From assembly GCA_021838635.1 (NCBI GenBank), contig JAKCDC010000004.1, positions 1-64,000 of the forward strand: 64,000 nt of DNA, in the 5' to 3' direction. This stretch comes from Pseudomonadota bacterium (lineage in GTDB: Bacteria > Pseudomonadota > Gammaproteobacteria > Steroidobacterales > Steroidobacteraceae). Below are positions 33,084 to 47,096 of this stretch, one piece after another. The notes beneath the pieces are model-generated. The model searched no databases, was not told where the DNA came from, and worked only from the letters and a program-made list of their open reading frames with translations. The position numbers and the translations under genes were made by a program. Positions within the stretch are counted from its first letter, which is position 1. Every line of letters starts with the position of its first letter.

Positions 33084-36000
33084 TCAGAGCAGGCGTCGAC
33101 CCGTGGCGCTTGCCGCCTGCAGTCGTTGCTCGCCCTGGCGCGCTTCATGTTCCAGGGTGTTGAATGCCGCGATCTGTGCCGGATCCGGCGCCCGATAGTC
33201 AAGACCGATGCTTGATTGCAAGTAGGCGAGGAAGCTGCGCAAGCGCATGTTGTGCATCACGTCCCCTTCGCTCGAGCGCACGTGCCGTTGCACCACGGCG
33301 TGCACCGCAGCATGCAGTGCCTGCATCGCCGGACCTGCGGCCGCGGCACTTAGTTTGTGCTCGGATACGGCTTTGGCCAGCTGCCGGCGCAGCAGGATCG
33401 CTGCGTTGATGTCCCGGTCGAGTACATCGACGCTGCGGTGCAGCGCAAGCTGCAGTGCCAGATGCTGCTTGAGAATTGCCGGCGTGGTGTGCAGGCGTGG
33501 ATCGAGCTTCACCGCGAACGATCGCCGGTATGCCTCGTTCCCGTATCGCAGGACCACGGTGTAGCGGCCGGGATTGACGAGCGGTCCGCGTGCACTTGCG
33601 GATAAGCCGTCGGTGACCTCCGGGGGCTCCCAGCCGATCACTTCCGTGGCATCCGCATAGCGCAGATTCCACTGGAAGCGGTTCAGTCCTGCGGTCACCG
33701 CAGTCATCTTCTCCAGGGCCCGATGCTTCACCTGTGAGGGCTGCAGGTTGTCGCGCACCGTGGCGGGCAGCTTGCGGCTGTGTGCGGGCTTCAGGTGCAG
33801 CGTGTAGCGCGCGATCTGCTGCCCCCGGGCACCGAGAAATGCCAGGCTCACCGGGGTCTGGCCGTGATAGCCGGCCGGGAGGTGGAAGAACACGGTTGCG
33901 CCGAACGGGGGGTTCGTGCCCACCGACTCGCGGTGTTCCGCGCCCGAGTCCTGTCCGTAGGCATGCGTCAGCCACGCGGTCTCGGGCGCGTACAGGTGCG
34001 TTGCGGTACCCGAGGGCTGCGCCGACTGCGTCATCTGCTCGAGCAGCGGCACGTCATCGAGAACCCAGAATGAGCGGCCGTGTGTCGCGGCGACAAGCTC
34101 GCCCTCGCGGCGGTTGAAGGCGAGATCTCGCACCTGCACGTGCGGCAGATTGACACCGAGCGCCGTCCAGTGCGCGCCGCCATCGAGGCTGGCATATACC
34201 GTGTTGCCGCTGCCTAAGACCAGGAGGCGGGCATCGGCGGGATCCTGCTTCACCACGAATACGTATTGATCGTTCGGCAGCCCCTGGGTGAGGGTCGTCC
34301 AGTGGCGCCCATAGTCGGTCGTTTTGAATACATAGGGATGATAATCATCCCACATGTAACGTGACGCGCTGAGATAGGCGGTCCCGGCCGCGACGTGCGA
34401 AGGCTCAATCGAGGTGATCTCGGCCCAATGGGTGAGCTGTGGCGGGGTGACCAGCTGCCAATGCTTGCCGCCGTCGACGGTGACATGCACCAGCCCGTCC
34501 TGCGAGCCTGCCCAGATCACGTGCGGGTTCAGCCGCGACACGGCCAGAGCCGAGATGTCCGGAAATACCTCGGCGCCGGTCTGATCAAGGTTGATCGGGC
34601 CGCCCGGCGGCCCCTCGGTGGCCGGATCGTTACGCGTCAGGTCCGGGCTGATGACCTTCCAGGTGCGTCCGTTGTCATGGCTGACCATGACGTACTGCGA
34701 GGCCAGAAACAGCTCGTGCGGATCGTCGGGGGAGAAGAAGATCGGATGGGTCCAGCCGAAGCGGTATTGCATCCGCGCGGCATCTCCGCCGTCCATATAG
34801 ATCGGCGAGGGACTCACTGACCGGCGCACCCCGGTCAGCCGGTTGTACCGTTGCATGATGGTGTAGTAATCGCTGCCGAAGGTGACGTAACGGCTGCCAG
34901 GCTTCGGCGCGACGAACGAGCTCTCCCCAAGTGCGACCGAGTGCCAGGCCGACACCGGGATTGCCCCGTCGATCGAGGCGCTGGGTCCCTCGAAGGAGCC
35001 TTCGTCCTGCTGCGCGCCGTACACATTGAACGGGAACGCATGATCGAGCGCAACGTGGTAGAACTGGCCCGTCGGCTGGTTGTGTTCGGTGCTCCAGGTC
35101 TTGCCGCCGTCGGTCGAGACCGTGGCGCCGCCGTCATTGCCGACCAGCAGGATCTTCGGGTGGTGCGGGTTGATCCAGACGATGTGATTGTCGCCGTGGC
35201 GCATATGCAGCAGCGAGAACGCCTTGCCGCCGTCGCGCGAGACCCAGACGCCGTCGACGTTCGGTGCATACACCGTGTTCGGATTGCTGGGGTCGGCGTA
35301 AATCGTCATGTAGTAGAAGGCTCTCTGGCGCAGACTCCAGCTGCGGTTGACGCGCTGCCAGGTCTTGCCGCCGTTGGCCGAGCGAAACACGCCGCCGTGC
35401 TTCGCCTGGATGATGGCGTAGACGATATTTGGATGACTGGCGGCGACTGACACGCCCATGCGTCCGAGCAGGCCGTGCGGCAGGCCCGGGTTGTGCGAGA
35501 GGTTCGTCCAGTGCGCGCCGCCGTCGGTGCTTTTGTACAAGCCGCTGCCCGGACCGCCGTCGATGAGTGTCCAGGGCGTGCGCTGCGCCTGCCACATCGT
35601 CGCATACAGCACGTTCGGGTCGCGCGGATCCATCACCAGATCGATCGCGCCGGTCTTGGGGTTGACGTAGAGCACCTTGTGCCAGGTCTTGCCGCCGTCG
35701 CTCGACTTGAAGATGCCGCGCTCGGCGTTGGGCTTGAAGACATGGCCCATGGAGGCAACGTACACGATGTCGGGATTGCGCGGATCGACCACGATGGCGC
35801 TGGTGGTGCGCGTGCCGGCAAGACCGGCGTACTTCCACGTCTTGCCGCCGTCGATCGACTTGAAGATGCCGTCGCCGGTGACCATGTCGTTGCGGATGTC
35901 CGCCTCGCCGGTGCCGACATAGATCACTTTTGGATTTGAAGTGGCCACGGCAACCGCGCCGACACTACCGCTTGCGGATGTCCACTTGCCGTCCGTGATG

Positions 36001-36269
36001 TTGTGCCACCGCACCCCGTAGTCGGTGCTCTTCCAGACACCACCGTCCACGGCGCCCATGTAGAACAGGTTGCGCTTGCCGGCAACGCCCGAGACCGCCA
36101 CGACGCGCCCGCCGATGTCAGGTCCAATGTTTCGCCAGGTGAGCTTGCCGTTGAGAAATTTCTGCAGCGCAGCGGCGTGCGCTGCGAGTGGCAGGCACAG
36201 CAATGCGGCGAGCGCGATGAACAGGGATTTGCGGCGGACGAGCCGCGGGTCGGCATCGGCGTGAAGCAT
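33084..36269 (-). CDS. Secreted BNR/VPS10-like beta-propeller protein
   Basis: 1061 aa. Signal peptide to about residue 33 (FIALAALLCLPLAAHAA). More than ten Asp-box/BNR repeats follow (KSTDYGVRW, KSIDGGKTW, KSSDGGKTW, KSTDGGAHW, RSANGGKTW, VSRDGGKAF, VSTDGGKTW, VSHDNGRTW, VTVDGGKHW, KTTDYGRHW, ASLDGGAHW), giving one or two sortilin/VPS10-type propellers over about residues 45-770. The C-terminal 290 residues are a beta-sandwich-like domain and a helical end seen in a widespread family of periplasmic glycosyl-hydrolase-like proteins of uncertain activity. A sialidase role is unlikely without the arginine triad. Good ribosome site (AGAGGTG). Confidence 0.85.
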   Translation of the reverse strand: MLHADADPRLVRRKSLFIALAALLCLPLAAHAAALQKFLNGKLTWRNIGPDIGGRVVAVSGVAGKRNLFYMGAVDGGVWKSTDYGVRWHNITDGKWTSASGSVGAVAVATSNPKVIYVGTGEADIRNDMVTGDGIFKSIDGGKTWKYAGLAGTRTTSAIVVDPRNPDIVYVASMGHVFKPNAERGIFKSSDGGKTWHKVLYVNPKTGAIDLVMDPRDPNVLYATMWQAQRTPWTLIDGGPGSGLYKSTDGGAHWTNLSHNPGLPHGLLGRMGVSVAASHPNIVYAIIQAKHGGVFRSANGGKTWQRVNRSWSLRQRAFYYMTIYADPSNPNTVYAPNVDGVWVSRDGGKAFSLLHMRHGDNHIVWINPHHPKILLVGNDGGATVSTDGGKTWSTEHNQPTGQFYHVALDHAFPFNVYGAQQDEGSFEGPSASIDGAIPVSAWHSVALGESSFVAPKPGSRYVTFGSDYYTIMQRYNRLTGVRRSVSPSPIYMDGGDAARMQYRFGWTHPIFFSPDDPHELFLASQYVMVSHDNGRTWKVISPDLTRNDPATEGPPGGPINLDQTGAEVFPDISALAVSRLNPHVIWAGSQDGLVHVTVDGGKHWQLVTPPQLTHWAEITSIEPSHVAAGTAYLSASRYMWDDYHPYVFKTTDYGRHWTTLTQGLPNDQYVFVVKQDPADARLLVLGSGNTVYASLDGGAHWTALGVNLPHVQVRDLAFNRREGELVAATHGRSFWVLDDVPLLEQMTQSAQPSGTATHLYAPETAWLTHAYGQDSGAEHRESVGTNPPFGATVFFHLPAGYHGQTPVSLAFLGARGQQIARYTLHLKPAHSRKLPATVRDNLQPSQVKHRALEKMTAVTAGLNRFQWNLRYADATEVIGWEPPEVTDGLSASARGPLVNPGRYTVVLRYGNEAYRRSFAVKLDPRLHTTPAILKQHLALQLALHRSVDVLDRDINAAILLRRQLAKAVSEHKLSAAAAGPAMQALHAAVHAVVQRHVRSSEGDVMHNMRLRSFLAYLQSSIGLDYRAPDPAQIAAFNTLEHEARQGEQRLQAASATGRRLL

Positions 36270-37468: not shown

Positions 37469-37786
37469 GTGATCAAAGTCAGCGTGATGTATCCGAATCA
37501 GCCCGGTGCCCGCTTCGATCATGACTACTACCGCGAGCGCCACATGCCCCTGGTGCAGCGGCTGATGGGGTCACTGTGCCAGTACTACACGGTCGACAGA
37601 GGACTCTCTGGCGGCGGCGCCGACGCTCCGGCGGTCTATGTGGCGATGTGCCACATCTTCTGCGACTCGGTCGCGGCATTCGATGCCGGGTTCGGTCCGC
37701 ATGCCGAGGAGATCCTCGCGGATATCGCTAATTACACCGATCTTGCGCCGGTCATCCAGATCAGCGAGGTAGTGGTCGGTCACTGA
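37469..37786 (+). CDS. EthD-family protein
   Basis: 105 aa. Ferredoxin-like EthD domain: IKVSVMYPNQPGARFDHDYYRERHMPLVQRLMG, YVAMCHIFCDSVAAFDAGFGPHAEEILADIANYTDLAPVIQISEVV. The DHDYYxxxHMPL motif is the family hallmark. EthD was named for a gene needed in ether-fuel degradation; members are small dimeric proteins with unclear chemistry. The GTG at 37469 follows a good GAGGAG ribosome site; the ORF's earlier 95 residues are not related. It precedes the PrnB-like gene on the same strand with a 281-bp gap. Confidence 0.87.
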   Translation: MIKVSVMYPNQPGARFDHDYYRERHMPLVQRLMGSLCQYYTVDRGLSGGGADAPAVYVAMCHIFCDSVAAFDAGFGPHAEEILADIANYTDLAPVIQISEVVVGH

Positions 37787-38067: not shown

Positions 38068-39243
38068 ATGAGCATCAGGGCGGAAGCGTTCGAGCACTGG
38101 ATCCGCACGGCCTTCGTTGACCTGAATACCGAGCTCGAAGAGCGCTACTTTGCGCAGGCCGATCGCAGCCAGGTGGCCGACATCGGCGCCTCGCTCAAGA
38201 GTGCGTTGCGCGATGAGGGACTTGTGTTCGTCCGGGCGCTGCTTCAGGAGGGTAATACAGGCGAGGGCTTCGAGAGTGCCTTCGCAGTCCTGGGCAATGT
38301 CGGGATGTATCTGGCCGCACTGCGCCGCCACGAGTTGACCCACCCTGCACGCGAGGAGCGTTCCCCGTTTCCGGAGGCTTCGGCGCTGGCGTTGCACGTC
38401 GGGGCATCGCTCGGAATGGCCCCACGGTTCGCCACCAGTCACCTTGCGACCCGCAATCGCGCCCGCGCCGGGATACGCAAGAGCTTCACTCGACTGCCCG
38501 ATGAGTTCTTGTTCATTGACGAGAACACCCGCGGCATTCTCAGTCTGCAGCTCACCGCCACGGCGCTGACGAACATCACGCACCTCGGGATTTCCAGTCC
38601 GGTCACCGACGGGATGTTCGCCGCGGCGCATCGCAGTCTCGAGGAAGTGCTTCTCATCAACGAGCGCTTAATGGCGCAGCTCGACGTCGAGCGATTTTTT
38701 TACTCCGTGCGACCGTATTACAAACCCTATCGGGTCGGGCGCCAGGAGTATCGGGGCGCCAATGCCGGTGATTTCTCCGGTATCAACGAACTCGATCTGC
38801 TGCTCGGGGTGTGCCGCGCCAACGATCCGTATTACGCGCAGCTGCTGGTAGACAAGATGCTGTTCATGCCGCCGGCCGACCAGGCGCGCCTGCGCGAGTG
38901 CATGACGCACCAGAGCTTGCTTGATGAGTTGCTCGAACTGCTGCCCGGGCATCGGCACACGGACTGGTTCCAGCGTAACGCGCGTGCTTACCTCGGGCTG
39001 TGTGACCTGTTCGCTCGCTACGCCGTGCAGCATCACGACGGCCTGGTCAGGCGGTTCATCACGGAGCCGGCTGCGCGGCTCGCTGCGCAGGGACTCGAGG
39101 ACCTCACCGCCAGCGGTCCGCCGCTGCCGGTGCTGCTGCGCGCACTGGAGGTGCTGCGCGACCTGCGCTGCGCGGCCGATCGGAGCGATATCGCTACGCG
39201 CCATGGGGATCTTGAGCGGCTGCGCGCCGCAGTGGGTGCGTAA
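38068..39243 (+). CDS. PrnB-like protein (DUF1864; heme-dioxygenase superfamily)
   Basis: 391 aa, helical, soluble. It resembles PrnB, the enzyme that rearranges 7-chlorotryptophan to monodechloroaminopyrrolnitrin and which shares the heme-binding fold of indoleamine/tryptophan 2,3-dioxygenases. The clearest match is FFYSVRPYYKPYRVGRQEYRGANAG against the [21 protein letters not shown] segment I recall for PrnB. FTRLPDEFLFID matches its TGLPDE region. The C-terminal quarter is divergent and longer. Several His residues could be the axial heme ligand (for example in LLPGHRHTDWF), but I cannot say which. No halogenase or other pyrrolnitrin gene is present, so the product is probably something else. 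Start ATG chosen where homology begins. Confidence 0.65.
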   Translation: MSIRAEAFEHWIRTAFVDLNTELEERYFAQADRSQVADIGASLKSALRDEGLVFVRALLQEGNTGEGFESAFAVLGNVGMYLAALRRHELTHPAREERSPFPEASALALHVGASLGMAPRFATSHLATRNRARAGIRKSFTRLPDEFLFIDENTRGILSLQLTATALTNITHLGISSPVTDGMFAAAHRSLEEVLLINERLMAQLDVERFFYSVRPYYKPYRVGRQEYRGANAGDFSGINELDLLLGVCRANDPYYAQLLVDKMLFMPPADQARLRECMTHQSLLDELLELLPGHRHTDWFQRNARAYLGLCDLFARYAVQHHDGLVRRFITEPAARLAAQGLEDLTASGPPLPVLLRALEVLRDLRCAADRSDIATRHGDLERLRAAVGA

Positions 39244-39515
39244 GAGACCAAGAGCGGTTCAGACGAGGTCCGCGCTTCGGGGCGCATAACGACTGGCCCC
39301 GCGCCGGTGGTTCCCGCCGCTGGCGCGCAAGACCTGACCGCGCCGGTAGGGCGGCGGATCAGCGAGTCGATACGGCAGGGCGCGTACCTGCTGGCAAGTG
39401 TTGGCGGCCGGAGGAGGCGGCCCGTACAATCCTCAGTGCCGCGCCGTGCTCGTATGGCGGTGGCGTATGGTGTGGCGCCCATTTGAGGAGGCGGATCTCG
39501 ATATCCGGATATGAG

Positions 39516-39788
39516 ATGGTCACTGCGATAATACTGATGAACGTCGAGCCGTCGCGCACCGTTGAGGTGGCGCAGACGCTGAGCGAAATGACTGGAGTGT
39601 CCGAGGTTTACTCGGTGGCTGGGCATTTCGACCTGGTGGCGGTCGTTCGTGTCCGGGAGAACGAGATGCTGGCCGAACTTGTGGCACAGCGCATCCGCAC
39701 TGTCTCGGGCGTGACGCGTACCGAGACGCTCATCGCCTTCCGCGCCTTCTCCCGCCACGACCTCGAGAGCTTGTTCAGTCTCGATTGA
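39516..39788 (+). CDS. Stand-alone Lrp/AsnC ligand-binding (RAM) domain protein
   Basis: 90 aa. The entire protein is the C-terminal sensing domain of Lrp/AsnC regulators: MVTAIILMNVEPSRTVEVAQTLSEMTGVSEVYSVAGHFDLVAVVRVRENEMLAELVAQRIRTVSGVTRTETLIAF. There is no helix-turn-helix. Such single-domain proteins form oligomers that bind amino acids and may modulate full-length Lrp proteins. The ORF start (TTG 39483) adds 11 residues; the ATG gives the canonical length. It faces the GGDEF gene convergently. Confidence 0.85.
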   Translation: MVTAIILMNVEPSRTVEVAQTLSEMTGVSEVYSVAGHFDLVAVVRVRENEMLAELVAQRIRTVSGVTRTETLIAFRAFSRHDLESLFSLD

Positions 39789-46102: not shown

Positions 46103-47032
46103 TCATGCCGGGTCGTGTTCCGCCCGGTAATCGGATATCACCCGCGGCAACTCTTCGAGGCGGGCGATGAAGCGCACCCCGGGGATGCGGCGGCGTAGCC
46201 GGGCCCAGCGCGCGCCTCCGGCCCAGATTTCGATGTGCTGGGGTAACTGGGCGCGCAGGTCCTTGAGCATCTCGAGCGCGGCTTTTTGCCGCAGGGCCTC
46301 GCTGAAGGACAGGCCGACCACCTCCACGCCCTGCTGCCGCGCCGCCTCGCTGATATCCCAGGCGGGCGTCTGCACGCCCAGAGACACGCAGCGGATGCCT
46401 TCGACCGCCAAGCATGCCTGCGCCATCAGCAGCCCCAACTGATGCTCTTCGCCCGGCAGCGTCGTCAGCATGACGCTGGGGTGGCGCACGCCCGGGTAGA
46501 TGGCCCCGATGCCCTGGCGCAGCTGATGCTGCATCTGCTCGGTGTAGAGGTGCTCCTGGCTGATCGACAGCTGGCCGAGCGACCAGGCCTCCCCGACCCG
46601 CAGATTCATCCGGGCGGCGAAATCGATGACGAAGCGCTGCAGTCCGAGCCGCTGCAATGCCAGGGAAAGATGCGAGCGCAGGCCTGTTTCGTCGTAGGTC
46701 GCCAGGAGCCGCAGCGTGGTGTCGAACAGCTCCCCGTCCTCGGGCCGGGCGGCGGCGTGGGCAGGTTTGTCTTCGTCCCCCGATGCCCGCGCGATCAGCG
46801 CTTCCAGCGGCGTTGCGACCAGCTGTCCGGCACGTAACCCGCGGCCGAGCAAACGGCTGATCAGCCGCAGCTTGTGCACCTGGTCCTGCGGGTAAAGGCG
46901 CTCACCGTGCGCATCCCGCAGCGGTAGCGGAAACCCATAGCGTCGCTCCCAGATCCGCAGGGTGTCCTTGGACAGCCCTGTCTCGCGCTCCACGGCGCTG
47001 ATCGAGGCATCGGGCAACTGAGGCGTGGGCAC
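46103..47032 (-). CDS. CarH/LitR-type MerR regulator with adenosyl-B12 photosensor domain
   Basis: 309 aa from the GTG at 47032. Residues of about 8-75 are a MerR winged helix ([26 protein letters not shown]). A helical-bundle cap follows, then a Rossmann-like B12-binding domain. The cap carries Wx9EH exactly (W150, E160-H161: [12 protein letters not shown]), and the B12 domain has ExHxxG (E195-x-H197-x-x-G200), whose His is the lower cobalt ligand in CarH. Spacing of these residues matches Thermus CarH. Such proteins bind DNA in the dark with adenosylcobalamin and let go in light. It diverges from folE2 with inverted repeats between, so folE2 is the obvious target. Confidence 0.85.
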
Positions 47033-47034
47033 GT

Positions 47035-47049
47035 TTTGTCCTGGACAAA
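47035..47049. promoter_or_regulatory. Operator copy 1: TTTGTC-N3-GACAAA
   Basis: TTTGTC CTG GACAAA; the full perfect repeat is TTTTGTCC-T-GGACAAAA (47034-47050). It abuts the -35 of the folE2 promoter and starts 2 bp upstream of the regulator's GTG. Same core as copy 2. Confidence 0.6.
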
Positions 47050-47051
47050 AA

Positions 47052-47080
47052 TTGACAGATCTCAGCCCAGGCCATATTGT
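47052..47080 (+). promoter_or_regulatory. Sigma-70-type promoter of folE2
   Basis: A consensus TTGACA (47052-47057), exactly 17 bp, then TATTGT (47075-47080). Initiation would lie near 47087, about 45 nt before the folE2 ATG. The two TTTGTC-N3-GACAAA repeats flank it. Confidence 0.55.
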
Positions 47081-47096
47081 CCACACACACGTTCAA

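Follow-up and report, generated by a model that had tools for sequence, protein, structure and literature searches.

An SO4414-type protein of the IDO/PrnB superfamily is a candidate ring-opening heme dioxygenase for tryptophan or a close relative

The open reading frame at positions 38068–39243 (+) of a 64,000-nucleotide stretch from a Steroidobacteraceae bacterium (contig JAKCDC010000004.1; this whole stretch is called the window below) encodes a 391-amino-acid, SO4414-type member of the IDO/PrnB superfamily of heme proteins. On balance, and by a modest measure, we think it probable that the protein is an IDO-like heme dioxygenase that opens the ring of tryptophan or a close relative and supplies a second kynureninase-type route. 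In the predicted chemistry, ferrous heme would be bound through H323, R215 would hold the carboxylate of tryptophan or its close relative, and O2 would be inserted across indole C2–C3 to yield an N-formylkynurenine-type product. This compound would then pass through a formamidase and a kynureninase-like PLP enzyme to an anthranilate-type product. In function, such an enzyme would be an alternative to both TDO and IDO.

The reading frame has an ATG start and is real: both the score of its Pfam PF08933 ("PrnB") match (510 bits, E 3.7e-153, profile positions 3–386 of 387) and its orthologs in related genomes are far beyond chance. An earlier note on this DNA had described a PrnB-type core, and both of its elements were located, FFYSVRPYYKPYRVGRQEYRG at residues 210–230 and LPDE at residues 143–146. 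In a sequence search of the PDB, the best match was SO4414 from Shewanella oneidensis (2nwb/1zee, 456 bits; 53% identity over 382 residues), whereas true PrnB scored 50 and 40 bits and IDO1 was marginal. The full-length PF08933 match and the match to SO4414 place the protein in the SO4414 type, and the Pfam name "PrnB" is misleading here because the model fits that type. The Pfam IDO model (PF01231) reached 13.5 bits on the window protein, below its cut-off of 26; neither the Pfam Trp_dioxygenase model (TDO, PF03301) nor a search of NCBIfam gave a match. The same note had proposed a divergent, extended C terminus, and this did not hold. The PF08933 match reaches profile position 386 of 387, C-terminal residues are invariant in 44 of 44 relatives, and the C terminus is among the best-conserved parts of the SO4414-type family in the 44-sequence alignment; from these comparisons, it appears divergent solely in relation to pyrrolnitrin PrnB. 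The description of the protein as a PrnB with an odd C terminus was rejected given its SO4414 type, with 53% identity to SO4414 and only 50 bits to PrnB, and identity with pyrrolnitrin PrnB was rejected on sequence and gene context. The location of the gene outside a pyrrolnitrin cluster is supported by its different gene partners. No tryptophan halogenase, and no linked halogenase of the prnA or prnC kind, was found among the best 25 of the 72 families in the window.

The proposed IDO/PrnB-superfamily heme fold was borne out by structure prediction. An AlphaFold2 model of the window protein built on the 44-sequence alignment (pLDDT 92, pTM 0.90) was compared with the PDB using Foldseek, and the top match was 2nwb_A (TM 0.95, rmsd 1.1), an entry titled "putative 2,3-dioxygenase SO4414 in complex with ferric heme". 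PrnB (TM 0.63–0.72) and IDO1 (TM about 0.6–0.67) followed, with E values of 1e-8 to 1e-10. From 2nwb and the invariant H323, we infer that the window protein binds heme.

The axial His and substrate Arg of the window protein were aligned with IDO only, using hhalign with bacterial IDO and human IDO2 (82.8% probability, E 9e-6). R215 of the motif F210-F211-x3-R215 (38695–38712, +) aligns with the IDO substrate-carboxylate Arg (R231 in human IDO1), and H323 of the H322-H323 pair (39031–39036, +) pairs with the His that is the axial heme ligand of IDO (H346 in human IDO1). In human IDO1, R231 forms an ion pair with the substrate carboxylate, and H346 is a heme ligand with imidazolate character (PMC5700043). 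The axial His and substrate Arg of IDO/TDO therefore both have counterparts (H323 and R215), and H323 provides the conserved axial-His candidate that had been anticipated. GANAG (residues 230–234; 38755–38769, +) was identified as the counterpart of the IDO DE-loop (GGSAG type) by HMMER alignment with IDO1 and by hhalign; N232 and its neighbors in this motif are invariant. The GTGG motif of the JK loop is conserved in IDO and TDO and touches the substrate (PMC5700043); it is absent from the window protein, where TASGPPL (residues 347–353; 39106–39126, +) is predicted to stand in its place. This placement draws on conservation and on global hhalign alignment of the following helix: TASGPPL lies directly before the C-terminal helix that is paired with the IDO post-GTGG helix and is therefore the presumed replacement of the catalytic loop. 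In the alignment, R215, H322, H323, T347, S349, G350, P351, P352, L353, and D365 are invariant in 44 of 44 sequences, and A348 is conserved in 43.

The SO4414-type gene is rare and patchy in its distribution. Intact or near-complete copies were present in 17 of 60 related genomes (the window's own included), and a fragment was present in one further genome. A gammaproteobacterial sample held 3 carriers among 369 genomes besides the window's own, all of one genus, and the single carrier among 151 genomes of a Sphingomonadales sample was the genome on which the sample had been centered. Relatives by name included Steroidobacteraceae-type MAGs, Sphingomonas, Novosphingobium, Parvularculaceae, Marinicaulis, and others. 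The idea that the three gammaproteobacterial carriers are Shewanella was rejected because their proteins are only 57–58% identical to SO4414. The wider order-level profile of carriers was uninformative because the family is rare.

Kynureninase-like enzymes recur beside the gene. A kynureninase-like class V PLP enzyme was encoded within 10 kb at 24 of 80 loci, compared with 0.66 expected from the density of kynureninase-like hits in carrier genomes; at 56 of 80 loci, it was absent from the fetched flanks, some of which are short. Fourteen of the 24 genes lie within ~130 bp of the SO4414-type gene, and some overlap it by a few bases (large negative gaps reflected over-long ORF calls, and tblastn positions were used for those rows). 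Three genomes of another gammaproteobacterial genus have the two genes overlapping by 8 bp (two genomes) or 9 bp apart (one genome, in which a divergent AsnC/Lrp regulator is also present). The adjacent-type enzyme clusters with canonical kynureninases in a tree, where long branches leave its placement unsure. It retains the PLP Lys and the GW[WF]xH and DxR...YN motifs, and the best PDB match to its profile is kynureninase 1qz9 (E 6.9e-44; next match, 1.3e-28). A second type, KynU2, predominates in the window's genus; its scores to desulfurases equal or exceed those to kynureninases, and its identity as a kynureninase or a desulfurase-like enzyme is not clear-cut. The informative partners of the SO4414-type gene, seen outside the window, are genes for kynureninase-like PLP enzymes and for anthraniloyl-CoA-type catabolism. 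These partners make likely the indole or aromatic ring reaction that the earlier note had suggested.

The distribution of TDO is also consistent with the ring-opening reading. TDO (PF03301) was missing in 35 of the 52 carriers tested, and IDO was present in 1 of 58. In Sphingomonadales, TDO occurred in 1 of 11 carriers versus 122 of 150 non-carriers (Fisher p 1.8e-6, from raw counts with 11 carriers and no phylogenetic correction). Two TDO-bearing controls that were read in detail had TDO, a KynB-type (PF04199) gene, and kynureninase in one operon; we take PF04199 to be the family to which bacterial kynurenine formamidase belongs. In carriers that lack TDO (two Sphingomonas and three gammaproteobacteria), the gene immediately preceding kynureninase encodes an alpha/beta-hydrolase with an HGGCW motif. 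Eukaryote-type kynurenine formamidases typically have HGGxW, and judging by its motif, the hydrolase is likely to be a non-PF04199 kynurenine formamidase in bacteria. These carriers have a putative formamidase and a kynureninase with no known dioxygenase, which leaves a gap that the SO4414-type protein could fill. Two stricter rules were rejected: that all carriers lack TDO, since TDO is present in the window's own genus, and that kynureninase without TDO always implies an SO4414-type gene, since canonical kynureninase is common without that gene in Sphingomonadales (103 of 151), and about 8 of these genomes have neither TDO nor the SO4414-type gene. At loci L180, L177, and L181, in genomes with neither TDO nor IDO, the gene for the HGGCW hydrolase overlaps or adjoins that for a canonical kynureninase. 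One genome (G470, locus L118) carries TDO, IDO, and an SO4414-type gene together and offers a natural test for differing substrates.

Within the window's genus, the gene is found with an island of anthraniloyl-CoA-type degradation genes. In a sample of 60 genomes from the genus, KynU2 was present in 12 of 18 carriers versus 2 of 42 non-carriers (p 9e-7), and a salicylyl-CoA/aminobenzoyl-CoA monooxygenase-type gene was present in 10 of 18 versus 4 of 42; p-values from this sample are indicative because some genomes are incomplete and related. In one genome (G034, contig C100), the SO4414-type gene is accompanied within ~30 kb by genes for two acyl-CoA dehydrogenases, a RidA-like protein, an SDR, an FAD/OYE fusion, and two PF04199 cyclases. 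The same stretch also encodes an indolepyruvate-oxidoreductase-type pair, TonB receptors, an amino-acid permease, and a CDGSH-cupin protein, together with KynU2 and a further class V enzyme. The FAD/OYE fusion passes NF006101, "salicylyl-CoA 5-hydroxylase/oxidoreductase" (1245 bits versus a cut-off of 1078), a family that we take to resemble 2-aminobenzoyl-CoA monooxygenase/reductase. A conserved 352-amino-acid protein that joins an N-terminal CDGSH iron-sulfur motif to a C-terminal cupin is encoded beside a TonB receptor and an amino-acid permease at L128:2205–3263, with homologs at L126, L130, L131, and L135–L137.

The window species itself has its own TDO (G000:C54), and its canonical kynureninase gene lies next to one for an FAD monooxygenase (G000:C93). 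At E 1e-100, its genome yielded no close copy of the salicylyl-CoA-type monooxygenase, and its KynU2 gene is intact and stands alone on another contig (L123:6819–8003, contig C52). In this species, the pathway seems partly scattered or degraded. The TonB, permease, CDGSH-cupin, and class V neighbors that sister genomes have are missing around this copy of KynU2. Replacement of TDO fails as a reading for the window species because it has its own TDO and canonical kynureninase, and retention of the two makes this the species in which the ring-opening reading is weakest. The window gene is intact and conserved; therefore, it probably acts in parallel to TDO, perhaps on another indole. Counting against the ring-opening reading more widely are the absent GTGG motif, the 56 loci without a kynureninase-like gene, the desulfurase-like scores of KynU2, and the small number of Sphingomonadales carriers (only 11).

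The alternative that survives best, which we rate as unlikely but worth serious attention, is that the substrate is not L-Trp but an indole amino acid that is modified or otherwise different (D-Trp, Trp carrying a hydroxy group or an N-substituent, or a Trp-derived metabolite); coexistence with canonical TDO in the window's genus would then be possible. Three features fit such a substrate: the genus retains TDO, kynureninase, and its neighboring FAD monooxygenase in parallel; the linked cluster includes a TonB receptor and an amino-acid permease of its own; and the TASGPPL loop is unlike GTGG. In Sphingomonadales, however, the gene occurs in genomes that lack TDO, a pattern most simply explained by Trp itself being the substrate. 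We consider it distinctly improbable that the protein rearranges tryptophan to an aminophenylpyrrole in the manner of PrnB, or monooxygenates an indole, in a natural-product pathway. The PrnB fold is held in common, and the superfamily includes several non-dioxygenase oxygenases (PMC11791213), but the score to PrnB is low, the best 25 of the 72 window families include no halogenase, and the genes that recur beside it are kynureninase-like or belong to CoA-type catabolism. A shade less probable again is a substrate of indole-3-acetate or indole-3-acetyl-CoA, supplied by the linked indolepyruvate-oxidoreductase-type genes and giving 2-aminobenzoyl-CoA as product. Several carriers do have a TPP/POR oxidoreductase pair and an aminobenzoyl-CoA-type monooxygenase on the contig of the gene, but the oxidoreductase genes are near only 9 of 80 loci, and the tightest and most widespread partner is the PLP kynureninase-like enzyme, which requires an alpha-amino acid. 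Very improbable, and the weakest of the four, is a non-catalytic or regulatory heme-binding protein, which would suit the missing GTGG motif and a catalytic activity that is predicted only, but not the substrate-type Arg, axial His, and DE-loop invariant in 44 sequences or the overlap with an enzyme gene.

Two enzyme classes, TDO and IDO, are recognized for oxidative opening of the tryptophan indole ring (PMC5350241). Returning to the ring-opening reading, we tentatively suggest, with confidence that falls somewhat short of even, that the SO4414 type is a third evolutionary class of bacterial tryptophan 2,3-dioxygenase, in which TASGPPL would take the place of GTGG, TDO would have been supplanted in several lineages by an enzyme with its own kynureninase-like partner, and a separate branch would lead to anthraniloyl-CoA in the window's genus. 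The nearest known system is SO4414 itself (PDB: 1zee, 2nwb), which belongs to the same family end to end and shares the His-His pair and TASGPPL, but it comes from another organism and is annotated merely as a putative 2,3-dioxygenase. PrnB (monodechloroaminopyrrolnitrin synthase; PDB: 2v7i, 9dfg) has the superfamily fold and an RPxYxPxRVG-type motif in common with the window protein but is only 14–20% identical in structural alignment and has other gene partners. The IDO enzymes (IDO1/IDO2 and bacterial IDO) share the fold and the aligned FFxxxR, DE-loop, and axial His; however, they are about 15% identical, belong to another Pfam family, and have GTGG where the window protein has TASGPPL. 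TDO (KynA, PF03301) catalyzes the kind of reaction proposed for the window protein and shows similar linkage to kynureninase genes, but it has no sequence match to that protein; the window genome also encodes a canonical TDO, and most sphingomonad carriers lack one.

SO4414 has been a structural-genomics orphan since 2005, with a structure now ~20 years old, and a literature search on SO4414 and DUF1864 found no functional study. SO4414 was reportedly studied beside a TDO by Forouhar et al. in 2007 (PNAS). With its gene linkage and the inverse distribution of TDO, the SO4414 type becomes a candidate third class that can be tested directly, and if the proposal is true, the misleading "PrnB" label on the family would be corrected.

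An EthD-family dimeric alpha/beta-barrel protein is encoded just upstream of the gene (37469–37786, +; TIGR02118, E 6.6e-31; GTG start at 37469). The earlier note was correct about its presence, but its use as a clue to function could not be sustained, since EthD neighbors are limited to 8 of 80 loci, all from close relatives in the same genus. EthD was rejected as a functional partner and is a conserved neighbor within the genus only. Downstream of the gene is a stand-alone Lrp/AsnC ligand-binding domain protein with no HTH (39483–39788, +; PF01037, E 7e-16), and a protein of this type was found near 5 of 80 loci. The EthD protein on the 5' side and the HTH-less Lrp/AsnC domain on the 3' side have a similar fold. 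BNR/sortilin-type repeat proteins of ~1060 amino acids recur near the gene or the catabolic island (window 33084–36269, –; L132:11569–14745; L189:7834–11109). Elsewhere in the window, 46103–47086 (–) gave a weak match to a CarH-like regulator (B12 photoreceptor type; E 3.7e-33, under the curated cut-off), and 103–849 (–) encodes a TraT-family (PF05818) lipoprotein (E 2.6e-55).
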